This document shows, one piece after another, positions 8,061 to 45,003 of a stretch of DNA of 64,000 nucleotides. The notes below the pieces were generated by a model that saw only the letters and a list, made by a program, of their open reading frames with translations, was not told the DNA's origin and ran no database searches. Positions within the stretch are counted from its first letter, which is position 1. Every line of letters starts with the position of its first letter. The DNA is from Nymphaea colorata (lineage: Eukaryota > Streptophyta > Magnoliopsida > Nymphaeales > Nymphaeaceae): NCBI RefSeq assembly GCF_008831285.2, contig NC_045138.2:10678571-10742570 (forward strand). Reading direction: 5' to 3'. Made by a program: the position numbers and the translations under genes.

Positions 8061-8212
8061 ACTGGAAGAAAATCTTGTAAGTATACGAAAGGAAAGAGGA
8101 TTCGGAAGCTGTTTAGGCTCATGGCTTTGAATATAGACTGGAAGAAAATCTTGTAAGTATACGAAAGGAAAGAGGATTCGGAAGCTGTTTAGGCTCATGG
8201 CTTTGAATATAG
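8061..8212. repeat. Perfect 76-bp tandem duplication
   Basis: Bases 8061-8136 and 8137-8212 are identical base for base, beginning 'actggaagaaaatcttg' and ending 'ttgaatatag'. Absence of any mismatch points to a recent duplication or to an assembly artefact. Confidence 0.97.
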
Positions 8213-10286
8213 ATTTTTTACTTGATTAGATTTAAATATTATTGGAGAGTGACAAAGTGATAGAGTTTATTTTTGTGTCGGGTGATCTTTAGACAATTGA
8301 TCATTGATGATTGATTGTTCCGCCCTCTTCTTCTCCCTGTTTTGCTTTGGCTTTTGCTTCATTTGCGCAGGTTCACATATTTTACACGTTAGACATAATT
8401 CTATGGGAAAGGAAGTTTTTGAAATAAATTACAAAATCACCACCAAACTTTTCAAGCTCTTAAATATACACCTCAATTTCCTATAATTCTCAAAATCGCC
8501 ACCTTCAAATAAAAAGCTTCAATTTAGAGGGATAATTTATACAATTGTCCTTCTCGAAACAAAATATCTAAAAATGAAAAAATATATGTATAAAAATGAA
8601 AAAAAGCTCTCGCTGTCCGATGCAGGACCCATGCTAAACACGGAGGGGGAGCCACCAGCTCTCCCTCGCTATCGAAAGAGGACCATCAAGCCAAGCGGTT
8701 TTTCTATAGGTTTTATTTTTTTATGTTTTTTTGGGAGATTTTTATAGAGATAACTATGTAATTACCTCTTTAAATTGATGTTTATTTCAAGGGCGTTATT
8801 TGTTATTTGACCATTTGTTAGGAGCATTTTATAAATTTTCATTTTTTTAAAAAACATGAGCACTCAACTTGATCAGTGAAGCTTGTCCGTTAGTTAAAGT
8901 ATCTTGGAAGCTTTTCCATTGAAGACGCCTTGCCTTGGACTTACGCTCACCGTGACATCCACCATGGCAATAAGTGAAGCAACACCCAAGTCTCATGCCC
9001 AAAACAATGTATCGAAAATCAGAATATAGGAAGCGAGCTTTTCAAAGTCAAGAAGTTAGGGACTCCCGCTGGGTCGAGTAACCGATTTGTGAGTCACTGG
9101 GTCAATCTGGTGACTCGGTCTGGTTCTGGCATTTTGATTTTTACCCTAGAAAATATGTACCTATTTACATAAAAAAATGTTAGTTTACATATTATGTATA
9201 TACTAATGTTTCTAATGCACTATAATAATCATATGTTACATATTTTCAATAGGGATATTGTCGACATTGGATTCAAAGTGGAGTATTCTTTACTATATTC
9301 AGGTGTTCACATATTCATGAGATTCGATTAAGTGTTCGAATATGAATGGAGAAAAGTTTAATAGCATATCCAAATTCACAATCTGAATCTGACTTCCAAA
9401 TTCACAGCTAAATTCAAACTGGAGAAGCAACTGCAATACAATCTTTTAAGAACCAACTTTGAAAATGTATGGATACTGGACGTAGGATACTTGTTTAAGT
9501 TCGAACCAATCCAATTTCTTAATCAGATGCTAATCTTCTTCTATATGACTTTTTTGGAGCAGTTTAGGATGATATTCGATCTAAATCAGATATATCAACA
9601 CCTCAAATTTTCACTCAACCTTACATTTGTAAGATAAAAGAACATTTATCTGCCTATTATAGGTAAGATGCAAATTTTAGTAATATGTTTGATACAATTG
9701 CACTATTAACGTCCAATAAAATTAGAACGATGCATGCGTATCTTCTGCATCACACACATTTAATGAAAATTTGAAAGAGTACATACATATATTTTTAACA
9801 TCATTTAAATAATCTTTTGTGCAATATAACCTTATGTTGTATACATGAACAAACCGATCAAACCGACCTGCGACTCGACTGATTCGGTTGAAACTCAAAC
9901 AACTCGGCCGAGCCTAGCTAGCCTCTTCTTGGTTTCGCCATTCTTCATACCAAGCTAGGGACCAGGAAAATACAAGGGGGAATCTTGACCAATTAATGTA
10001 GAGCAAGGTCGTCGGAGAGTGGGAAGGATGGAGGGGAAGACACAAAAGAGTGAGCAATTGGGTCGTGGGGGTTCATGCAAGGGGCGAGCCGGAACAAGGA
10101 GAGGGCTCACTTTCTGACGTGACTCCAAAGTCTCAAAGAATCACACGCAAAAGCAAAGAATCCTCCTACCTGTTGCTTGGACCCTCCTTCGTCCTCCTCT
10201 TCTCATGAAAGTGATGTGAATCCCATTCCCCTCCCTTGGCTTAAGCCAGAAGCCTCAAAACTGGAAAAAGTTGCGTGTTGGTGCAT

Positions 10287-11826: not shown

Positions 11827-12587
11827 AGGGTTCATATTTTCAAATATTTCCTTAATTACCTCACTTTAACTGTTTTAGTATACAGTGGATTACCGTGCAC
11901 GGTAACTAATGAAGGCTGGTTTCTACTCTTTTAGGAGAGAGGTACTATTAGTTTTTTCTTGAAAAAGTTATTCTTTCAGTCTTCAATTTTGACCTTGTAG
12001 GAGTGAGTCCTTTCTTTTACCATCAATTGTAATTTAGTCTTCTAGCTTCTAATACATAGTCCGGTGCTAGAGGCCTAATAAATGCTCTGCTCCAAGTCCA
12101 GCGACCACCTTGAACAAAAACCATCAATCTTTGCAAGCACAATATCGATTTCCAAAATTTCATGGAACCCACCTGGTTTATACCCAGTAATCTTTTTCAT
12201 AAACACTTTTTACCTAAAGAATTGGATCTTACTTCCAATTCACATTCAATTATGAAAGTTTGGTTTTAAGTGTTGATGAAAAAGATTACTTAAAACCCAG
12301 TAATCTTTTTCCTCAACACTAATTCCAGACACCCCCTTATTACAGAATTTCAATTTCACGAATGATAACAACACTCTTGTCTAGAGGTCCAATAATTATA
12401 AAATTTAAATAAATTTAAGCCAAATCTTCTAGACTCCACAAATCAAGAGAAATGATTAGTTCATTATAATTCAAAATAGACTTTGAAACACCTGAAGGCC
12501 AAAAGCAGTTCAAGATAAGTGTCTCCAAATATTATTCACCATTGTCCAGTCAAGTGTCTGGTAATCCTTTACTCCTAATCCAATTGT

Positions 12588-13290
12588 TATATCAGAATGT
12601 AGAGTTGTGTGGGTCATGAAGAATGTCGATGTTACACTTATTCCTTAAATTTATTAAAATCTCTACACCAAACCCCATGAAATCTTCTACCAATATTATT
12701 ACTCTCATTTCACACACAATTGCCAATAACCTTACAAGGAATACTTATGTTTTTAAAATTGTAGTAAGTTGCGCAAAGGATATTCTCCATTCCATGCCAT
12801 TGTTATGCAAGCATAAACTCCACAGCAAGGAACCGCATATCTAAGTGTCCCTCCTGCAATCAACTAATGTCTTGCCATGTGAATGACTTTACTTGCAACC
12901 TTGACTGAACCCTAGCAGCTTGACTCCCCACTATTGTTATACTAGAATCTAGAGTTGTGTAAGTCATGAACAATATCAAAGTTGCATTCATTCCTTGAAT
13001 TTATTAAAATCTTTTCACCAAACCCCATGCAATCTGCTATCAATCTTAGCTCCTTCATTTCACATATAGTTAGAGTTGCCAACAACTACACAAGGGATAT
13101 TTATGTCCTTAAAATTATAGTAAGTTGCAAAAAGGATATTCTCCTATCAATGCCATTGTTATGCAAGTATAAACTCCACAACAAGGAACCACATATCTGA
13201 GTCACAAAGTGTCCATTCCGCAATCAACCAATGTCTTGCCATATCAATGAATTTAATTGAAACCTCGACCAGATCCTAGTAGCAAATTAT
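12588..13290. repeat. Tandem duplication, period about 358 bp
   Basis: Two diverged copies (from about 12588 and 12945) share long strings such as 'ccattgttatgcaag' and 'caatcaac.aatgtcttgccat'. The parallel plus-strand ORFs at 12623 and 12982 merely reflect this. The content is unidentified and may be part of the LINE remnant next to it. Confidence 0.8.
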
Positions 13291-20618: not shown

Positions 20619-20997
20619 AAAAAAAAAAAGTCTACCATGAAACCCCACAATATATAACTTTCGAATCACTCGCATTAAATAACAGATAATACATGGACTC
20701 AAATAGTAAATTAAGGTAAAAAATATCTTCCTTGACAATGCTAACAGAGTTTATCCGGGGGTGGGCGCCACCGACTACTGCTTAAGAAAGACGGCAAATG
20801 CGATGGTAAGTAAGCGCCCGCAATCATAAGCTTCATTGGCTTCCTTGTTTAGTTCCGTCTCCGCCTCCCTCCTTCCTCCATAAAAAAGCAGCCTTGACGT
20901 GGGCTTCTCTCTGCCCTCTGATCAACCTGCCCTCTTCTTCCTCTTCCTCTTCCTCTTCCTCGATCGGGCCTTGGGCTATCCATCTTTTTCAGAGAAC

Positions 20998-23900
20998 ATG
21001 GAAGACGTAGATGGTTGGGAATTGCTTGCAGGGGATGGATCTCTTGAGGGGGGGAAAGGAGAACCCATCCCTAGAGAAGTTGAGACCGATCATGGCGCCT
21101 TACTTGACGCCAGTTACTTCATCTGCCCTGCTTCTCCATCTCATCCTCCTCATATCCATCCCACGACAGGCTCTGAAACTGCTCTCGATCCCATGGCGGT
21201 TGATGAGACTAAGGATGAGGCAGGACCCGCAGAAGAGATCAAGGAGATTCCGGTTGTTGATGTCAGCGTAGTGGAGGAAGTTGTCGGTGATAAGGTGGTG
21301 ATAGAGGAGAACAAATTCGTCGACATGAAAGTGGCAGACCTGCCGGAAATCGGCAAGAAGGATCTGCTTCAAGAAGCAGTCAAATCGAATGTTGATAATG
21401 ATTTGGGCGTTTGCGAGTCAGTTCCTGTGAAGGAGGCGGCGGCCTTTGTCGGTGGCTTGGTGGAAGAAGAGAAGAGCGGCAGCGATGGTAGCAGCGGTGG
21501 CAGTGGAGGCGGTTTTGGGATTTGGGGATGGAGGGTGACGGGACTAGGCGCTCTGTGTTCGTTGGGCGTCGCTGCTGCTACCATCTGCATCATATTACTT
21601 GGTCGCCAGAGGCAGATGCAGCGGCAGCAGCAGAGCCAGAAGTTCAGATTCAATTCCTGCGGCGATGAATCGGTTAGTGTTTTTCCTTTCTTTTCCATCT
21701 ATTTAGTAGCGTTAAATCGTAGTTCAGTTGAGAACGCAACTCCATCAACCGTAGTGATCGGCTCGCTCCATTCCCCTTTTCTAAAGGTGCGTTCGATTGC
21801 CTTGAAAAAACATTTGGAACCTAAAATTGAAGTCTTGGAAGACAAAGTACACTTCGCATTGTTCATGATAAATATTTTAAACATTTTCCGTTATCTAATC
21901 GAGGAAAGTAACTTTTTATAGAAAGTAGGTATCCAAAGAAATTGCTGGCTATCAAAACACCCCGAAAAACATGCTAATCTCCACTGTCAATTTTTCATAC
22001 CAGTGTTACTAATCATAGACGTGGAAGAAGAAATAAGAGCTTCGCCCTGCAATTCTTGCCCGATCTTGGGTAGAAATTTTAGGGGCAGTTATGGATTCTG
22101 CTTGTCAACGGGGCAATCATAAGATTAGCAAGTAAGTTAAGGCGACCTTGCCTATGGCAAGTTGAAAATGGCGATTAAGTTCTTGTAAGACTTTCTAGAC
22201 AGAGGTGAAAAGCAAGAACAGCAGCCTCACCCCTGCCATGCTTCCGGGGCCTCTGGGGTTCAGGAGACTTTCTGGCCCAAATTTTATGAAGCTGGAAGGG
22301 AACCTTGAATTCGACAAATTGTCAGAGATGGGAGAAAAGGTGACTGGTATTTGTTTAAGATTTAAAACGGCTTTCTATAAAGATACAGTTGTGTTCAGGT
22401 GGCATCTTCAAAATATGATGCTACTACTTTATTTTTTACTACTTTTTCGAGTCTGATTTCTGTGTTTGGATCCCAAGTCAAAAGGAGTTTTATATGGAAA
22501 AACAGAGGGAAGGCTAGGTGGTTTATGCTTTTTTAAAACGCCATTTTGTCAGAGCTGAGTTTTTTTGTAGACCCGGCTTCGACTATCCAAACATACTTTA
22601 AATGTTATATACCCTTCAACGTCGTTTTGCCTCCAAAACAATGTTTCTAGAGCTCATCTTCTTGATCAATTTCCTTCATGGGCTACTTAAGGTGAGAAAA
22701 TGGAATAAAAAAAAAAAAAAAACCCTGCTTTTGAGGATGATCTCCTTGAATTGGTGCTGATCTGGTGTTCCTTAATGGGAGATATGATCAAGTTGGGTAG
22801 AGGGGAAATTGTTTTAAGCTTGTGCTTTGGGAAGATAGGGCGAGTTTTTCGACTCATAGCATGCGTGAGACTTTTCTCCTTCATCTTTTCTGTCACGACT
22901 TAGAGGAGATCGAGTGTTTGGGGATTGCGGTGGGCCATTGGATTAACGATGGTTCCTCCCATGCCTTTAAGACATAAACAAAGACATAAAAAGATGGGTC
23001 TTTGATTCTCGGTGAGCAAAAGCTGACCAACCAATGGTTTAAGCTTCCTTTTCCTGTTGCCTTCAATGGCCTCCAAGATCTGAGACTGTATTGAACCTTT
23101 GTGTGGATTCAAAGCACTGCCAACTTGGTGTTGCTTATGACCTACAAGCAGGGGATCTAGGGCTGTACAACTGGTCGAGTCAACTCAAGTTGTACTCGAA
23201 CTCACTCCGTTGAACTTGATTCGAGCTCAATGCTTTTAAAACGAGTCAAGCTCGTGCTTAACTTAAAACTTAAACTTCTCAATAGGTCGAGTTCGAGTTA
23301 TATAAGCTTGGTTCGAGTACGCTTGTCTAACTTAGGTTTTTTTTTGTTTTTTAATTTCCAAACATAATTAATTAAGGAAGGAGATCAAGGCAAATGGGGA
23401 GTTGGTAAACAAGCTCAAATGAGTTGAACTCGAGCCGATACTCGGTCTATCAAATCTGAGTTTGAGCTGGCCTTGTCCAGCTCGACTCGACCTGAGCACA
23501 TAATATGAGTAGAGTTGACCGAGCTTGAGGTTGACTCTGCTTGTATACAGCCCTAATAGCATCTACCAGCATCTGGGGGATGGAATTAATAGCGTGACAC
23601 CTTCAAGCCAACCAGCTGGAGCGGCCATTTTTTATCCCCTGAACGACGGTAGAGGGAACATGGCCCTTCTTGACTGGGGGGTGTTCAGTAGTGGCCATCG
23701 ACGCCTCAAGTTTTGATAATTTCAATTTACTGGTTAAAATTTTTTTAAAAAAAATCGTTAGGCCCCTATAGAATTTTGGAAGAAATAAAGGTTACACTTA
23801 TTAAAAATTTCAAAAATTTTGTTTAGTGGTTGCACAATTGTCTGGCCTCCCTAAAATGGAATCTTATCTGCCTCCTGAGTTTTTTTTTTTTTTTTTTTTG

Positions 23901-27086: not shown

Positions 27087-27599
27087 CAAGCCAAGAAGCC
27101 AGCATGCCCCGGTGTGTTTACAAATGGGGCACAGAAACGGATCTCACAAATGGAGCTATAACGGTCCGATCGTTGTTTATCGGACGGTTTATATTTTAAT
27201 TGAAAAATAAGAGAAACAGAGAGGGGGTCCCCTTCTCGCCTCTCAATTCTCATTCCCCCTTCTTCACTCTCTCTCCTCTCGCCACCTCATGACTTCCTCC
27301 CTCATGCTTGCTTTTTGTGCCTTTCCCCATCCCTCCTCTCCCTCGTTGCCCTCCCCATTGATGGTGACAATAGTTGTCGGCGACCATTTCAGACCAAGGG
27401 AACGGTGACGACGAAAAACACACAGGTAGGCCTCCTTCCTCTCTCGCTCTCTCGCGCTCTCTCTCTCTCTTTGTGTATAAAAGGGGATGCTCTCTGGCAG
27501 CCTCTTTCTTTTTTCTTTTTGTGGGCACTGCCGGGAAGCGCAGCCCATTCGATTGTGTTCGTTGCTCATGGAGCACATGATTGTCTTTCTTTCTTTTTT

Positions 27600-28262
27600 T
27601 GCCATAGTAAACCCAAATTTTGAAAGTTGGTGGAGACTTGATCAGGCGGCAGTTGCATTCAATACTTCCCCTCTTTCTCGAGAGGTATTAGCCCGAGTTC
27701 ATAATGAATGTTCAACTAAAGAATTATGGGATAGACTTGTCAAAACATATTCACAAATTTCAAAGGCTCGACTTTTTCATCATCAACGGGAGTTTCAGAA
27801 CTTGTCAAAGAAATCAATGTTTTTTATGGAATATCTGAATCAAGTGGCATCTATTTCTGATCAGCTGGCTACTATTGGATACGAATTGTCTGAAAAGGAC
27901 AAAATGCGTAGGACATTGGATGGACTTGGGCCAAAGTGTCATGTGTTGGTCACTTCATTACAGCGTTTCGTGCAATTCCCTTCCTTTGATGACTTGCAAG
28001 CCAAGCTTACAGTATGAGATGACTTTGAAGGGGTTTTCTAATGAATCAGGCGGACAGATATTGGCCACTATGATCTCTACTGGACAAGGGGAACGATCCG
28101 ATGGCTTTGGAGCAGGACGCAGGCAAGGCAAAAGATCCTTTGGAGGGCATGGACTATTGATAACTCCTAACACTGCAGCCACATCATTGTCTAGAAATGT
28201 GCCTACCTACTTTGATTGCAACAAACGTGGTCATATCAAGGTCAACTGCTGGAATAATCCTT
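27600..28262 (+). pseudogene. Ty1-copia gag remnant
   Basis: From about 27617 a long open stretch reads as UBN2-type gag: LWDRLVKTYSQISKARLF, then a MEYLNQVASISDQLATIGYE block and a LDGLGPKCHVLVTSL block, as in copia gag ('LW..L...Y...S.ARL..L...L', 'YL..IK.I.D.LA..G', 'L.GLG..Y..F'). After a stop at 28017 another frame ends in a zinc-knuckle-like YFDCNKRGHIKVNCW. The first cysteine of the C-X2-C-X4-H-X4-C motif is replaced by tyrosine. The protein is broken by this shift and by the lost ligand. Confidence 0.82.
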
Positions 28263-35693: not shown

Positions 35694-36290
35694 ATCTTTG
35701 CATGATAAACAATAAAAGGATAACAGCATTTGAGTGGGACTTACTTTGATCTCTAAAGAAAATAGAATTATTTAACACATTTCAATAATAAACTAATATC
35801 AGTTATTTATGTAAGAAAATTAAAATACGAAATTTATTATTTGAATAATTGTTGTTTTATATGCAATGTGTTGATGACTTGCTCCAACACTAGTGATAAC
35901 ATTACCAATTAACATGATTAATTTAATGTACTCATACTAGTGATTTACAAAAATAAATTAAATATTAGTTAGTGATTTATTATTGTGATATTAAAGTATT
36001 TATCAATCATTTACCCCAACAATAGCAATTTAATCAAATAAGTGATATCTGTACGTAAATGCAATTGATTAGGGATAAAAGTGGCTATTTACTTCAATTG
36101 TAACACTACTAATTAACATGATTTATTATATACAGTAACATTAATTATTTATGTAAGCAAATGAATTGTGCTAGTGATTTACTATGGTGATAGTGTAACT
36201 AACTTGCATTAGTCCATGTGGTGTATTAATGATGAGACTAGTTATCTACCTTACATCGATTTTCGTCATAAAGGAAACCTAATATTTGAT
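35694..36290. other. AT-rich intergenic DNA, no gene seen
   Basis: It contains degenerate repeats of 'agtgatttac/attaacatgatt' every 60-100 bp, without coding potential. Confidence 0.45.
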
Positions 36291-36298
36291 AACAAAAC

Positions 36299-36722
36299 TA
36301 AGGGTGGGCATCGGGCCGGCCCGGCCCGATAAAGAACCGTCGGGAACCGCCCGATGGGCCGCTGGGTCGGGCCCGGGTCCGGCCCGGATATTTAACGGGT
36401 CGGGCCGGGCCGGGCCCGGATATATGAAACCTGAGCCCGGGCCCGGCCCGGTTATAATAAAATAATATTATTTTTAATTTATAAAATATTTTTTAAAAAA
36501 TAAATAGTATTTATTAGTGATAAATATATAATATTAAAATTAAAAAATTAAAAAAAATATATATTTTAATTTTTAACGGGCCGGGCCGGGGCTGACCCGG
36601 GCCGGCATATCAGGCCCGAACCCGGCCCGTTAACAGTTTTTCCCGGGCCGGGCCCGGGCCCGGGCCCGAGGCGGGCCGGGTACCGGGTACCCGGCGGTGG
36701 CCCGGCCCTGTGCCCACCCTTA
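36299..36722. mobile_element. hAT-type MITE, 424 bp, perfect ends
   Basis: Perfect 12-bp terminal inverted repeats TAAGGGTGGGCA bound the element. The flanks aacaaaac (36291-36298 and 36723-36730) are a perfect 8-bp target duplication. Both arms (about 150 bp) are dense GGGCC/CCGGG tracts and the centre is almost pure A+T. Related to the element at 35436 and to the fragments at 32880 and 37128. Confidence 0.85.
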
Positions 36723-37127
36723 AACAAAACTAAATTGCTATAAGTAATTTTACGCAAAAAAAAAAAGTGACAAACACCAACAATGTTTTCAAAATATTCA
36801 TCAATTTACTTCCATGCCATGAACACCCCCACCTCATGTGAGCTCCTTTGGCTATCACAATAATCACAACAGTGATGTACTTACACGTGACAGTGAACTT
36901 AAAAAACTAACAATGGTTTACTATAAAGTAACTGTGTCCTTCAAAAACACATGCAACCATAAAGAGGCATTTGCTTAGTGTCCCAAGCCACTAAAAATAC
37001 TATGTTCAGTCTAGTCGAATCTGATGCAAATGATGGACATGGAATGCATGGAATGGGCGGACTTGGAGGACCCTCATATAAAAGGGTCCATTAAGTATTG
37101 TTCTGTTGTTTACCGTGAAACAAAAGG

Positions 37128-37345
37128 CATGGAACTTGGGCTGGGCATCAGGCCAGACCGGCCCAGTGGGTTCATTTTCATGTTTAAGACCTGGCCCGTC
37201 AATAATCGGGCTGAGTTGGGCCCAAGGCCTATCAGGTACTAGGCGTCATGACTTGCCCAATTCCCAGCCAGACCCGACCATGAACATCAAAAATCAGGCG
37301 GGGCTGGGTGGGTGTATACCAGGCCTAATACCTGATAGGCCTGAA
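37128..37345. mobile_element. Fragment of the GGGCC-rich MITE family
   Basis: 'gggctgggcatcaggcc' at the left and 'taggcctgaaa' at the right, with gggcc/ggccc blocks between. The ends have decayed and no target duplication is clear. Confidence 0.5.
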
Positions 37346-38010
37346 AAAATGCACCATATTAAATCTTGAAGATAATCTTTCGCATCACTGAAAGAAGAAC
37401 CGTCTAAACAAAATTTTCATCTCTTTGTTGATTAACAATCAAGAAGCAGCGACCGTGCCAACTAAATTAGGCTTCCACATAGCCGTTGGACACGATAACA
37501 TCAAAAATAAAATATGTGCAGTTTGTGGTGTTTGCATCCCACATCTCCCAAATATTGGTGTTCTTGTACAAATAAATAATCAATGCTCAAATTTACATAA
37601 GATATTCAACAAATGCTGAAAAAATGAAATTATGTCAGTGAAAACAAAGTACACAACACAAGGAATGAAGTTCAGATGTATTGCAGGCAAAACATTAAAG
37701 ATTTAAAAGGTTCACCATCCACTAAAGTCATTATTTGGAACAAAACTGGAACAATGACATGGAACACATAAATTCTTCTACAAAAATAAAAATAGTTTTA
37801 CATAGTGTCATACTACAAGCTCAAAGTACTTGCGTATATATCGGAATATGTAGGTTTAACATTGTAAAAATAAGTACATGCACCAAGAAAACCCCATATA
37901 CAAATCAAAAGTTCATGTAAATGACTAAATATGAAGATGCCATGCATGGGCCTCAAATCCTAGAAAACACATGGCCTAGCTGAAAATAGATAAATTAAAA
38001 CGATCCATAC

Positions 38011-38095
38011 AGCTATTATTCCTTTTCGGGCCTCTTGTAATTTATCATTTGCAATCCGCTCTTTGGCTAAAAGGGTGGTATTCATATGATCCAAG
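38011..38095 (-). pseudogene. FDM/IDN2-like coiled-coil exon, truncated copy 0
   Basis: On the minus strand only the last third of the repeated exon remains (LLAKERIANDKL-type text, cf. 'LNQTLIxKERxSNDELQEARKEL' in FDM proteins). Its 5' part is cut exactly where the MITE block of the first array unit begins. It marks the low-coordinate edge of the array. Confidence 0.6.
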
Positions 38096-38551
38096 GGGAA
38101 ATGCAGGCATCACGCAGCGCGGCCCGATACAAGCCTGCGTCCTTGCCTGATGGGCTGGCCCAGATCGGCCCAACGGAAGCCCGACCCGGTCCAATAACAC
38201 TTAAATATTTTTAATATATTTTATATTTAAAAAAATTATTTTATGTTTGTAAAAAAGTTTATTTTATATTTATAAAAAAACTTATTGTAACCGAGCGAGG
38301 CCAAGTAAGAGCCGAGTCCGGGCTGACCCGACATCTGAAAGTAGGGCTTGGGCCCGAGCCCGATACCCAAAACTCGGGCCTGGGCTTGGTCCGACCCCGA
38401 TCGGTTATAATAATTTTTTCTTTAAATATAAAATAATTTTTCTGCCCTGATCGGTAGTTGAGCATAGAATAATTCAGGATAATGAAGAGAAGTATGACAA
38501 AATATCTAAGCATAATAACAGTATGCGAAAGAAAAGGAGAACGATCCATGC

Positions 38552-39014
38552 GGCCATTATTTCTTTTCGGTTCTCTTGTAATTCATCATTTGCAATTTTT
38601 TTTCAGCTAAGAGGGAGGTATTCAGTTGATCCAAGTCATCCACCTCAGTTTCTTTTTCTTTCAGCATGGTCCTTATGGACTCCATTTTGTCTCTAATATG
38701 CTCCATCATTTGTATTTTTCCTTTCAACTTTTCTATCTCTACAACCAAATTCTGCTCCAGCCTCTTTTGCATATCAAGAACCTTCCTATGTGATTCATCT
38801 TTCTCTCTCTGTACATTTAATAAGTATTATTTAGCCCATACTCAATTTTTGTATGACAAGCAATAAATTTTGTCAAACTAAACTACACATTGAAAATTTT
38901 CATAGAGAGAAGCTTTCATAGACCTTATGATTCTCATATAACTTCATTAAATTTTCATCAGTGTTCTTCTACTCCATACTGGCTGCTTGAAAATTAGCAT
39001 ATGTGGCAACAAAA
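38552..39014 (-). pseudogene. FDM/IDN2-like exons A and B, copy 1
   Basis: Exon A at 39014-38924 (minus) reads ANFQAA..EQK.TDENLMKLYE, and exon B at 38808-38552 reads LVVEIEKLKGKIQMMEHIRD followed by KMESIRTMLKEKE. In plants these blocks belong to the coiled coil between the XS and XH domains of FDM1-5/IDN2, which bind RNA intermediates in RNA-directed DNA methylation. Exon B here has a small deletion after QKRLE, a frameshift after LLAE, and a GC in place of the donor GT. The acceptor of exon A is damaged. Confidence 0.72.
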
Positions 39015-39654
39015 TAGAAATATAGAAATTTAACATAGTAAGCTAACGTGTACACATTTTAAAAGACAACTCATATGCACTTATATAGTACGAAGAAAGA
39101 CATGTCATAAAAAGTTGAAAATTCATATACTCTTTAAAAAACAGCTAGGCATCACTAGACATTGGGAAATGCAGGCATCATGCAGCCCTGCCCGATACAG
39201 GCCTGGGTCCGGGCCTGATGGGCCGGCATGGATCGGCTTGACGGGGGCCCGCTTTGGTCCAATAACACTTAAATATTTTTAATATATTTTATATTTAAAA
39301 AATTATTTTATGTTTATAAAAAAGGTTCTCTTATATTTATAAAAAAAATTATTGTAACCGAGCGAAGACCGGTAAGAGCCGGGTAAGAATTGAGTCTGGG
39401 CTGCCCCGACCCAGTGAGAACTGTGTCTGAACTGGCCCGACGTCTGAAAGTCAGGCCTGGGCCTGAGCCCGATAACGGAAACCCAGGCCTAGGCTTGTCC
39501 CGACCCTAATCGGTTATAATAATTTTTTTTAAATATAAAATAATTTTTCTACCCTCATCGGTAGTAGAGCATAGAATAATATAGGATAATGAAGACAAGT
39601 GCGATGTATCAAAATATTTAAGCATAATAACAGTATGCGAAAGAAAAGGAAAAC

Positions 39655-40116
39655 GATTCTTTTCGGACCTCTTGCAATTCATCATTTGCAATCTACTGTT
39701 TGGTTAAGAGGGTGGTATTCATTTGATCCAAGTCATCCAACTCAATTTCTTTTTCCTTTAGTGTGGTCCTCATGGACTCCATTTTGTCTCTAGTATGCTC
39801 CATCATTTGTAATTTTCCTTTCAACTTCTCTATCTCTACCTCCAAATTCTACTTGTCCTCCAGCATCTTTTGCATATCAAGAATCTTCTTGTGCGCTTCC
39901 TCTTTCTCTCTCTGTACATTTACTAAGCATCATTTAGCTCATAATCAATTTTTGTATGACAAGTAATAAATTTTGCTAAACTAAACAACACATCGAAATT
40001 TTTCAAAGAGAGAAGCTTTCATAGACTATATGATCCTCATATAGCTTCATTAAATTTTCGTCAGTCTTCTTCTGCTCCATACTGGCTGCTTGAAGATTGG
40101 CATCTATGGCAGCATA
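39655..40116 (-). pseudogene. FDM/IDN2-like exons A and B, copy 2
   Basis: Exon A lies at 40116-40027 and exon B at 39911-39655 (minus). Exon B keeps its acceptor (tgtacag) but has an in-frame TAG after LEDK, another stop near LLTKQ, and a deletion that removes its 3' splice donor region (the 'cgatccatac' block of other copies is shortened). Confidence 0.7.
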
Positions 40117-40749
40117 CTAGAAATATAGAAATTTAACATAATAAGCTAACATGTACACATTTTAGGAGACAACTCATCCATTATACACATATACAGTACG
40201 AAGAAAGGACAAGTCATAAAACATGAAATTCAGATACGCCTTAAGAAACAGCTAGGCATCACTAGACATTGGGAAGTGTAGGCATCATGCAGCCCTGCCC
40301 GATACAGGCTTGGGTTTGGGCCTGATGGGGGCCCAACCAGGTCCAATAACACTTAAATATTTTTAATATATTTTATATTTAAAAAATCATTTTATGTTTA
40401 TAAAAAGTTCATTGTATATTTATAAAAAAAAATTATTGTAACTGAGCGAGGCCCCATAAGAGCCGGGTGAGAACCGAGTCTGGGCTGGCCCGACCCAATT
40501 AGAACCGGGTCCGGGCTGGCCCGACGTTCGAAAGTTGGGCCTGGGCCCTAGCCCGATACCCGAAACCTAGGCCTGGGCTTGGCTCAGCCCTGATTGGTTA
40601 TAATAATTTTTTTTTAAAATATAAAATAATTTTTCCATGTTGATCGGAAGTTGAGCATAGAATAATATAGGATAATGAAGAGATGTGTGATGTATCAAAA
40701 TATCTAAGCATAATAACAGCATGCGAAAGAAAAGGAGAACGATCCATAC

Positions 40750-41060
40750 GGCTCTTATTTCTTTTCAGGCTAATTGTAATTCATCATTTGCAATATGCTC
40801 TTTGGTTTGGCTAAGAGGGTGGTACTCAGTTGATCTAAGTCATCCAGCTATGCTTCTTTTTCCTTTAGCATGGTCCTCGTGGATTCTATTTTGTCTCTAA
40901 TATGCTCCATTATTTGTATTTTTCCTTTCAACTTCTCAATCTCTACCTCCAAATTCTGCCTGTCCTCCAGCTTCTTTTGCATATCAAGAACCTTCCTGTG
41001 TGCTTCCTCTTTCTCTCTCAGCATCTCTGTCAGCATGCTAGAAATATAGAAATCTAACAT
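40750..41060 (-). pseudogene. FDM/IDN2-like exon B, copy 3
   Basis: Exon B (to about 41020) reads REKEEAHRKVLDMQKKLEDR, then EKLKGKIQIMEHIRDKIES. It keeps a good GT donor (gtatgg), but has an in-frame TAG after KEKEA and a frameshift near LLAKP. Exon A and the intron between are deleted, so the unit is about 180 bp shorter than its neighbours. Confidence 0.7.
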
Positions 41061-41681
41061 AATAAGCTAACATGTACACAATTTAGAAGACAACTCATCC
41101 ATTATGCACATATACAATACGAAGAAAGACGGGTCGTAAAAACATGAAATTCACATACTCGTTAAGAAACAGCTAGGCATCACTAGACATTGGGGGAATG
41201 CAGTTATCATGCAGCCCTGCCCGATACAGGCCAGGCTCCGGGCCTGATGGGACGGCCCGTATAGGCCCGACCGGGTCCAATAACACTTAAATATTTTTAT
41301 TATATTTTATATTTAAAAAATTATTTTAAGTTTGTAAAAAAGCTTATTTTATATTTATAAAAAAAATTATTGTAACCGAGCGAGGGCCGGTAAGATCCGG
41401 GTAAGAACCGAGTCCGAAACAGCCCGACCCAGTAAGAACCGGGGCCGGGCAGGCCCGACGTCCGAAAGTCAAGCCTAGGCTAGAGCCCGATACCCGAAAC
41501 TCGGTCTAAGAATTGGCCCAGCCATGATCGGTTATAATAATTTTTTTTAAATATAAAATAAATTTTCTGCCCCAATCGGTAGTTGAGCATTGAATAATAT
41601 AGGATAATGAAGAGAAGTGCAATGTATCAAAATATCTAAGCATAATAACAGTATGTGAAAGAAAAGGAGAACGATTCAAAC

Positions 41682-42149
41682 GGCTAATATTTCTTTTCGG
41701 ACCCTCTTTAATTCATCATTTCCAATCCGTTCTTTGGCTAAGAGGGTGGTATTCAGTTGATCTAAGTCATCCAGCTCAATTTCTTTTTCCTTTAGCATGG
41801 TTCTCATGGACTCCATTTTGTCTCTAATATACTCCATCATTTGTATTTTTCCTTCCAACTTCTCTATCTCTACCTCCAAATTCTGCTTGTCCTCTAGCTT
41901 CTTTTGCATATCAGGAACCTTCTTGTGTGCTTCCTCCTTCTCTTTTTGTACATTTAATAAGCATTATTTAGCACATACTCAATTTTTGCATGGCAAGCAA
42001 TAATTTTTGTTGAACTAAACTACACATCGAAATTTTCAAAGAGAGAAGCTTTCATACACCTTTTGATCCTCATATAGCTTCATTAAATTCTCATCAGTTT
42101 TCTTTTGCTCCATACTTGCTGCTTGAAAATTAGCATCTGTGGCAGCATA
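41682..42149 (-). pseudogene. FDM/IDN2-like exons A and B, copy 4 (best preserved)
   Basis: Exon A at 42149-42060 reads YAATDANFQAASMEQKKTDE, then NLMKLYEDQK. Exon B at 41945-41682 is fully open: MQKKLEDKQNLEVEIEKLEG ... TMLKEKEIELDDLDQLNTTL ... KERIGNDELKRVRKE. This is the nearest copy to an FDM-type heptad coiled coil. Its acceptor is lost, however (tacaaaaag where other copies have tgtacag). No XS or XH domain is found within 5 kb either side, so it is not a complete gene. Confidence 0.75.
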
Positions 42150-42777
42150 CTACAAATATATAAATTTAACATAGTAAGCTAACATGTACACATTTTAGAA
42201 GACAGCTCATCCATTATGCACACATACAGTACAAGAAAGACAGGTCATAAAAAGATGAAATTCAGATACTCGTTAAAAAACAAGTAGGCATCACTAGACA
42301 ATGGGAAATGCAAGCATCATGCAGCCCTGCCCGATACAGGCCTGGGTCCGGGCCTGAGGGGGCCCTTCCCGGTCCAATAACACTTAAACATTTTTAATAT
42401 ATTTTATATTTAAAAAAATATTTTATGTTTATAAAAAAGTTTATTTTATATTTATAAAAAAATTATCGTAACCAAGCGAGGCCCAGTAAGAGCCAGGTAA
42501 GAACCAAGTCCGGGCTGGCCCGACCCTGCTAGAATCGGGTCCGGGCTGGCCTGACGTTCGAAAGTCTGGTCCAGGCCCGAGCCCGATACCCAAAACCTAG
42601 GCCTGGGCTTGGCCCGGCCCTGATCGGTTATAATAATTTATTTTAAATATAAAATAATTTTTCTACCCTAATCGGTAGTTGAACATAGAATAATATAGGA
42701 TAATGAAGTGAAGTATGATGTATCAACATATCTAAGCATAATAACAGTGTGTGAAAGAAACATAGAATGATCCACAC

Positions 42778-43250
42778 GACTCTTATTTCTTTTCGGGCCA
42801 ACTGTATTTTATCATTTGCAATCCGCTCTTTTGCTAGGAGGGTGGTCTTCAGTTGATCCAAGTCATCCAGCTAGGTTTTTTCTTTCGTTTAGCATGGTCC
42901 TCGAGGACTCTATTTAGTCTCTAATATGCTCCATCATTTGTATTTTTTTTCCTTTCAACTTCTCTCTCTCTACCACTAAATTATGTCTGTCCTCCAGCTT
43001 CTTTTGCATATCAAGAACCTTTTTGTGTGCTTCCTCTTTCTCTCTCTGTACATTTAATAAGCATTATTTAGCCCATACTCAAACTTTGTATGACAGGCAA
43101 TAAATTTTGTTAAACTAAACTACACATCAAAAATTTTCAAAAAGAGAAGCTTTCATAGACCTTATGATCGTCATATAACTTCATTAAATTCTCATCAATC
43201 TTCTTCTGCTCCATACTAGCTGCTTGAAGATTAGCATATGTGGCAGCATA
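42778..43250 (-). pseudogene. FDM/IDN2-like exons A and B, copy 5
   Basis: Exon A lies at 43250-43161 and exon B at 43045-42778 (minus). Exon B has an intact tgtacag acceptor but carries an in-frame TAA after MMEHIRD, an inserted lysine run and a frameshift near LNERK. Its donor region reads gtgtgg. Confidence 0.7.
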
Positions 43251-44949
43251 CTAGAAATATAGAATTTTGATATAGTAAGCTAACATGTACACATTTTAGA
43301 AGACAGCTCATCCATTATGCACATATACAAGAAAGACAGGTCATAAAAAATGAAATTCAGATACTCGTTAAAGAATGGCTAAGCATCACTAGACATTGGA
43401 AATGAATGCATCATGCAGCCCTGCGCGATACAGGCCTGGGTCTGGGCCTGAGGGGCCATCCCGGATCGGCCCGATGAGGGCTCGACCCAGTCCAATAACA
43501 CTTAAATATTTTTAATATATTTTATATTTAAAAAATTATTTTATGTTTATAAAAAAGCTTATTTTATATTTATAAAAAAAATTATCGTAACCGAGCTAAT
43601 GTGTGCCTTGCATTTGCACCTTTGCGCATCGCGCGCTGCACGCCAAGATGAGGCCTGGGGGGCAGTTTTGGCTTGGCTGGGTGGGCATCAGTCCTGCCCA
43701 CACCCCAAAGGGGTGTTTGAAGGGCTAGTGGTCAATCCCACTTAGTCGAAGCCTATCTTAAAAAAAATAAAATTAATTCAAAAATAGTTGAAATTCGCAT
43801 GAAAATCATGTTAAATTAAAAAAAATCAAATTTTGAGTTTTGACTTCAAAATTCTTTATAAATACTCCCACAATCCTTTCTACCGGGTATGAGTTAACCC
43901 TTGAGAAATTTTTAATGTTTTCTCACTTGAAGTTTTAGAGTTTTTCCTTAACTTTTTTTCTCTATTTTTCTTTTCTTCTCTTCTTCATTTTCTCCTAACT
44001 TGGAAGCAAGCTTTTCCAAGTTCAAACTCTTCAAGGAAGCACGAGGAGACCTCTTGGAAGGATATTTTCATCATTTTGGAGCTTCATCCTATGCGATCCT
44101 GAGATCACTCAAAGAAGAAAGCTCATTTCTAATATCATCTATTTTTTAGGTATGTGGTCCTCCATTTTATTTTCATTTCCTTTTGCCACCTCCCCTTGGT
44201 CGTGCTACAAAGTCTAAGGATTTCCTCTCTAGAGTCAAGAGCTACTCTTGAGGCAACGAGAGTATGAGTAAGGCGAAATAAATTTCATTTCTCATTTATT
44301 TTCAAAAATATGTTAGTTATATGTTTGAGATGATGTTCATGTGTGATATACTAATTTTCTTAATTAATGAGAAAATACACGACGAGAATGAGTGTTTGGG
44401 TTGAGATATTTCTTCATTCTTGTGTTGATATTTGATGTTGAGACTTGTTCAACCTAAGAAAGCCCTTAACGAATTTGTACATGTTAAAGTGCATTTTTAT
44501 GTCATTCTCACGTTTAGTTTATCTCTTAATCATCTGATTAGGAATCCAAATGGTGCTTTATTACGTGCTTGATTCTCTTTCATACCCAATGATGGAAGAA
44601 ATAGACTTTCTTGTAGGAAACGAAACAAATATGAGTTTATGTTTATGTATAAAATATTTGAAATCATGTTTTTCAAAAGATTTTTAAAAGCAAATACGAT
44701 CTTTAACGAGGTCTTGGAGATTTAGCATAGACTCTTGCATGAGTCCAAGTTCCTCTCTGGCCTACATAGAAGAATTGAAGTCGGATATTTTAAAGTCATT
44801 TCTTGATTTCAACTCTCCTGAAAACATATATGTATATACATGTTATATATGTACATATTAAGATGACTACCTCTCTTTGTCCTTCTTTTTTTATGATTTA
44901 ATATATCCTTTTAAAAATTCTCATACACGTACATATGAACATATATACA

Positions 44950-44950
<1 letters not shown>

Positions 44951-45003
<53 letters not shown>
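44951..45003. repeat. (CT)n microsatellite
   Basis: About 52 bp of CT with one interruption. Confidence 0.95.

Follow-up and report, generated by a model that had tools for sequence, protein, structure and literature searches.

A decayed head-to-tail array of FDM/IDN2-like coiled-coil exons and a transposon-like block in Nymphaea colorata

In Arabidopsis accessions, the FOLT2 cluster contains truncated gene copies located away from the functional gene, and truncated copies near FOLT2 give rise to small interfering RNAs (siRNAs) that silence FOLT1 (PMC8042742). Gene fragments captured by transposons, in which a gene piece is combined with transposon-like DNA away from its donor, are presented as siRNA reservoirs in a review (PMC13317346), and some satellites are described as being born as short tandem arrays within retrotransposons (PMC7004042). 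A locus that partly resembles each of these is found in Nymphaea colorata, in a stretch of 64,000 nucleotides on contig NC_045138.2 (C1:10678571-10742570, hereafter the window), where positions 37992-43598 are occupied by a head-to-tail array of direct repeats. Each full unit holds exons resembling those for the coiled coil of FDM/IDN2 genes, together with a GC-rich/AT-rich block similar to a miniature inverted-repeat transposable element (MITE). IDN2 and its paralogs function in RNA-directed DNA methylation (PMC3342958). Like the FOLT2 copies, the array consists of truncated gene copies, but FOLT2 siRNAs silence FOLT1 whereas 24-mers of the window array seldom match the genes. It shares with transposon-captured fragments the pairing of a gene piece with transposon-like DNA away from the donor, but takes the form of a head-to-tail array in which element ends were not recognized. 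Like the retrotransposon-born satellites, it is a short array derived from non-satellite DNA, but its sources are a host gene and a MITE-like block, and it has five to six copies. The best explanation overall, which we consider probable, is that a piece of an FDM gene joined to the block was multiplied mostly in one burst and then decayed. Today the array would most likely make no protein and represent a non-functional, satellite-like pseudogene array.

The assignment of the array exons to FDM/IDN2 coiled-coil exons is well supported by sequence comparison within the same genome (407.8 Mb, 783 contigs). Profile matches to XH numbered 12 genome-wide and were confined to C6 and C10; six gene loci from there were compared with the unit, and L012 (C6:3.15 Mb), L013 (C6:3.85 Mb) and L014 (C10) were used for the detailed comparisons, leaving out L009, L010 and L011. 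The gene-derived part of the unit is 90.7% identical in DNA to L014 over 756 bp. This locus carries XS (E 7.6e-14) as well as XH exons, XS having been examined at L014 only, and the match bears out the FDM/IDN2 origin proposed in the original prediction, a reading of this DNA made from its letters and open frames. Identity is 89.5% to L013 and 89.8 and 88.8% to L012, placing the array exons at 89-91% DNA identity to the coiled-coil exons of three loci in the same genome. Two other loci matched less well, L011 at 79% over 314 bp and L009 at 76% over 104 bp plus 73% over 73 bp; no match to the unit DNA came from L010. In an early test, alignment with an IDN2 segment scored 232, and the highest score among 2000 heptad-preserving shuffles was 94. 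In L012 and L013 both exons are open, and exon B of L014 is frameshifted; L014 itself may be damaged.

Unlike FDM/IDN2 genes, which combine XS, a coiled coil and XH, the array holds only two coiled-coil exons in decayed form, and the scanned flanks lack XS and XH. Pfam searches of the minus strand at 28.1-38.0 kb and 43.6-53.5 kb returned no family, and hence no XS or XH, at E 0.1, and the plus strand at 33.1-38.0 and 43.6-48.6 kb returned no family at E 0.01; the earlier statement that neither domain lies nearby holds within these flanks. On the array itself, Pfam gave five weak matches, every one under its cut-off and none related to FDM. A sequence search of the PDB returned one chain (E 2.4), plasmid tblastn had no match, pattern scans of genome and viral contigs gave 135 and 25 matches, none of them confirmed, and Rfam had 0 matches in 36000-45000. 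No report of such FDM exon arrays was found in the literature searched, whose coverage excluded most subscription papers.

The array comprises five full units and a remnant at either end. Anchors at 38107, 39175, 40282, 41205, 42314 and 43408 give unit lengths of 1068, 1107, 923, 1109 and 1094 bp, which reproduces the direct orientation and the period claimed in the original prediction (1068, 1107, 922, 1110 and 1094 bp); its count of five full units also stood, and the single partial unit it described became two, one at each end. On the minus strand, each full unit is ordered as the end of an intron, exon A, an intron, exon B, the start of the next intron and the block. Exon edges were placed from the reading frame and splice signals, and the edges of the block are approximate in every unit. 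The features are as follows.

37992..38095, minus strand: left remnant, exon B tail and donor, then a deletion joining it to the block
38103..38457, no strand: GC/AT-rich block, unit 1
38552..38808, minus strand: exon B, unit 1, 257 nt, frameshift, acceptor intact, donor GC
38924..39013, minus strand: exon A, unit 1, 90 nt, one stop, acceptor AG lost
39171..39564, no strand: GC/AT-rich block, unit 2
39657..39911, minus strand: exon B, unit 2, 255 nt, two stops, donor deleted
40027..40116, minus strand: exon A, unit 2, open
40278..40650, no strand: GC/AT-rich block, unit 3
40750..41018, minus strand: exon B, unit 3, 269 nt, stop and frameshift, private deletion beyond
41201..41582, no strand: GC/AT-rich block, unit 4, predicted long RNA hairpin (z -5.67)
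41682..41945, minus strand: exon B, unit 4, 264 nt, open, acceptor AG changed to AA
42060..42149, minus strand: exon A, unit 4, 90 nt, open, splice sites intact
42310..42678, no strand: GC/AT-rich block, unit 5
42778..43045, minus strand: exon B, unit 5, 268 nt, stops and frameshift
43161..43250, minus strand: exon A, unit 5, open
43404..43598, no strand: right remnant, half of the block, array end (anchor 43408)

At least one coding or splice defect is present in all five full units: a lost exon A acceptor, an exon A stop and an exon B frameshift in unit 1, two exon B stops and a lost donor in unit 2, an exon B stop and frameshift in unit 3, and exon B stops with a frameshift in unit 5. The shortness of unit 3 results from a private deletion of 186 columns that removed the intron and most of exon A. 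Unit 4 has both exons open and has lost the acceptor of exon B, so the copy-by-copy inspection agrees with the earlier description of decay in every copy except an open fourth one without its acceptor. In the consensus of all units (16 tied columns), both exons are open, spanning 118 codons, with AG/GT at all four inferred exon edges.

The consensus exons are 90 nt (A) and 264 nt (B) long, both multiples of three in phase 0, and head-to-tail copies would therefore splice in frame. Together with the canonical splice sites of the consensus and the fact that exon B and its intron are tandemly duplicated within the gene at L012 (C6:3144500-3152500; 85% over 300 bp), this arrangement would suit a tandem exon duplication that was functional and extended a coiled coil. 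The substitution pattern was examined by two counts. In the context-dependent count, with rates learnt outside the exons and columns restricted to those found in four or more units and showing no more than one deviating unit, there were 50 nonsynonymous changes against 49.8 expected and 5 stop changes against 5.1. Nonsynonymous change is thus at the neutral level when context is allowed for, and this, the defects in all five full units and the lack of XS and XH in the scanned flanks make a functional exon duplication extremely improbable. Some of the counts pull away from unconstrained decay. Synonymous changes in the context-dependent count numbered 24 against 16.8 expected. Under uniform rates, with all untied columns included, there were 85 nonsynonymous changes against 97.1 expected, 9 stop changes against 6.8 and 39 synonymous changes against 29.2, the last of which also fits a functional duplication; changes at codon positions 1, 2 and 3 in this count were 43, 38 and 52. 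The uniform-rate result leans towards weak constraint, and brief or weak protein constraint may have acted. In the alignment with the genes, array-private changes were 35 nonsynonymous, 18 synonymous and 4 stop, and gene-private changes were 16, 12 and 2, counts that carry no test of their difference. Collectively, the data support, with modest power, decay of the array under little or no protein constraint. Within the favored history of joining, multiplication and decay, the copies would have degenerated one by one after the multiplication.

The block of ~365 bp is common to every unit. Homology to L012-L014 begins just past it on one side and stops at or shortly before it on the other, and all three loci lack the block at the corresponding place, so that it marks a seam between gene pieces. 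With three aligned loci lacking it and homology ending at both of its sides, the block is not an intron insertion common to the gene loci. The original prediction held that a MITE was in place before the amplification; the occurrence of the block in every unit supports its presence before or during that event. Its nature was addressed by comparison with a complete hAT-type MITE at 36299-36722 (424 bp), which has the terminal repeat TAAGGGTGGGC and the 8-bp duplication AACAAAAC. When the low-complexity filter was switched off, the block matched this element at 71% over 155 bp (E 4e-11) and, inverted, at 71% over 99 bp. The resemblance of the block to a hAT-type element is partial and does not extend to the ends: the terminal inverted repeats and 8-bp duplication that define this type are both present at 36299-36722, but the block has no terminal inverted repeats that pair, its inverted repeat being internal, and inspection by eye recognized no target-site duplication. 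The resemblance to the neighboring MITE and the position of the block at the seam of the gene piece could reflect a Pack-type (hAT-like) transposon that captured part of a gene, in which case the array would be a series of elements arranged head to tail and each block the fused ends of two. The locus does show a gene piece bounded by the block; neither element ends nor a duplication (sought by eye) were recognized, and the unpaired ends and internal inverted repeat leave the Pack-type origin doubtful. In the history that we favor, an FDM/IDN2-like piece of ~735-755 bp, extending from the end of the upstream intron to the start of the downstream intron, would have been joined to the ~365-bp hAT-MITE-like block, an anatomy that is seen in the units themselves. 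A long terminal repeat (LTR) insertion was also considered for the cut right end of the array and found no support: TG is found at 43600, but no CA followed by the 5 or 6 bp that precede this TG occurs up to 52000. The looser, 4-bp form of this test gave five matching places.

Dating of the copies by pairwise divergence, a check proposed with the original prediction, gave p-distances of 0.121-0.138 for all ten pairs of full units. Divergence of 12-14% between all pairs argues against an assembly artefact. Gap-free variable sites comprised 195 singletons and 36 parsimony-informative sites, the latter distributed over nine groupings, and internal branches account for 3.5% of the length of the unit tree. 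This near-star divergence indicates that a composite unit of ~1.12 kb gave rise, head to tail, to six or more copies, the majority of which formed over a short period. An in-frame segment of 15 bp that is present in three genes is deleted from all five full units, and this common loss and the shared block indicate one founder. Judged from the consensus, the founder had open exons and canonical splice sites and already lacked the 15 bp found in the three gene loci. Multiplication probably went by way of a circle or some other rapid replicative mechanism, not by slow unequal crossing-over.

Several observations sit uneasily with this history. The best tree exceeds a star by 5.7 log-likelihood units, a difference reached in 1 of 100 star simulations, and a gap of 23-24 columns is nearly common to units 3 and 5. 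On its right side the array breaks off within the block, with loss of the original junctions, and neither a circle junction nor an insertion-site duplication of the array was identified. The near-shared gap and the non-star tree imply at least one later step, and most but not all copies appear to have arisen together. Units 3 and 5 are paired in the best tree (Shimodaira-Hasegawa-like approximate likelihood ratio test 89.6, bootstrap 85), and all units are separated by the block, as would be expected if stepwise unequal crossing-over between two blocks flanking the exons had built the array. Near-star divergence, in which there is little sign of steps separated in time, makes stepwise assembly unlikely, though it is a possibility we take seriously. 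The Pack-type and crossing-over proposals both concern the mode by which the array was made and can overlap with the explanation by joining, burst and decay. Gene conversion between units was tried and rejected, the number of adjacent informative sites sharing patterns being 4 against 3.46 expected (p 0.46). Assignment to the class of satellite DNA, defined by long, homogenized arrays, was likewise rejected for five full units that differ pairwise by 12-14%.

For the gene-derived part, distances were 0.103-0.150 between array and genes, 0.082-0.105 between genes and 0.113-0.143 within the array, and L012, L013 and L014 cluster at 96.1/96 in an unrooted tree of units and genes. Going by these distances, the age of the burst appears to be of the same order as that of the gene duplications; constrained genes change more slowly, and the two therefore cannot be placed in order.

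The original prediction further speculated that amplified pieces of such a gene could yield homologous small RNAs. A window array acting as a small-RNA source that silences FDM genes, by analogy with the truncated FOLT2 copies and their effect on FOLT1, would fit the role of IDN2 and its paralogs in RNA-directed DNA methylation. Other features in keeping with it are the long hairpin predicted for RNA of the unit 4 block (0 of 100 shuffles as good), the proportion of the 308 24-mers of the array exon consensus that lie within one mismatch of some unit (88%) and the existence elsewhere in the genome of further copies of the same exon, in a second array and as an inverted pair of facing matches. 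Exact matches to a full unit, however, were found for only 32 of the 323 exon 24-mers of L012, 15 of 323 for L014 and 1 of 323 for L013 (148, 90 and 62 of 323, respectively, when one mismatch was allowed), and so few exact matches make the window array a poor trigger against these loci. Within the window but outside the array, the exon protein had no match in either direct or inverted orientation (best E 6.2). The mutational record was also examined. Transitions in the array affected 20 of 240 CG, 31 of 397 CHG and 45 of 1275 CHH sites, without an excess of transversions. The same test on private changes gave CHG 6/69 and CHH 8/504 in the three gene loci and CHG 9/107 and CHH 25/799 in the array; a methylation fossil in the array mutations was rejected, since the gene loci show the same CHG bias. 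On this evidence the small-RNA step finds no support at the window array, and silencing of FDM genes from it is very unlikely. Other amplified copies in the genome would be a more plausible source of small RNAs.

Those copies emerged from a genome search with the coiled-coil exon protein, a check suggested earlier, which gave at least 43 matches: 11 in the window array, 8 at gene loci, 20 in a second array, 2 in an inverted pair, 1 on C2 and 1 at C6:2.87 Mb. The second array, the inverted pair and the pieces on C2 and at C6:2.87 Mb are described here from match coordinates and scores. The second array, also direct (C6:10993990-11005112), contains five exon B copies. The four spacings between them are each exactly 1762 bp, and four of the five copies agree in score, identity and stop, a uniformity that suggests recent origin or homogenization. 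The inverted pair consists of exon B matches at C6:3831767-3831997 (+) and 3832122-3832373 (-), which face each other tail to tail across 124 bp; the closest XH match belonging to L013 is ~12 kb away. Counting the in-gene duplication at L012, this genome appears to have multiplied the same coiled-coil exons of FDM genes on several occasions.

Considered by itself, the array in this window is a curiosity in decay; what gives it value is its place among several apparent amplifications of these exons. Repeated amplification of exons from a methylation gene family is unusual, and chance, local instability and small-RNA feedback are candidate causes. Feedback by small RNAs on some small-RNA pathway genes, through phased siRNAs of SGS3 and DCL2, miR162 and miR168, is described in PMC5902766. 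By extension, the N. colorata genome might repeatedly amplify FDM exons, with the young array and the inverted pair feeding siRNAs onto FDM genes and tuning RNA-directed DNA methylation, and with the window array as a dead earlier round; we offer this as a conjecture that is probably wrong in its full form, and quite improbable as a whole. An inverted exon pair near an FDM locus would make the feedback question directly testable for RNA-directed DNA methylation.

Elsewhere in the window, a Copia-type gag remnant lies at 27481-28014 (PF14223, E 2.4e-12) and an open frame with DUF6821 at 20884-21918 (PF20705, E 1.7e-19). Two further repeats were observed: a 76 bp repeat in two perfect copies at 8061-8213, and ~340 bp in two direct copies, 79% identical, at 12583-13283.

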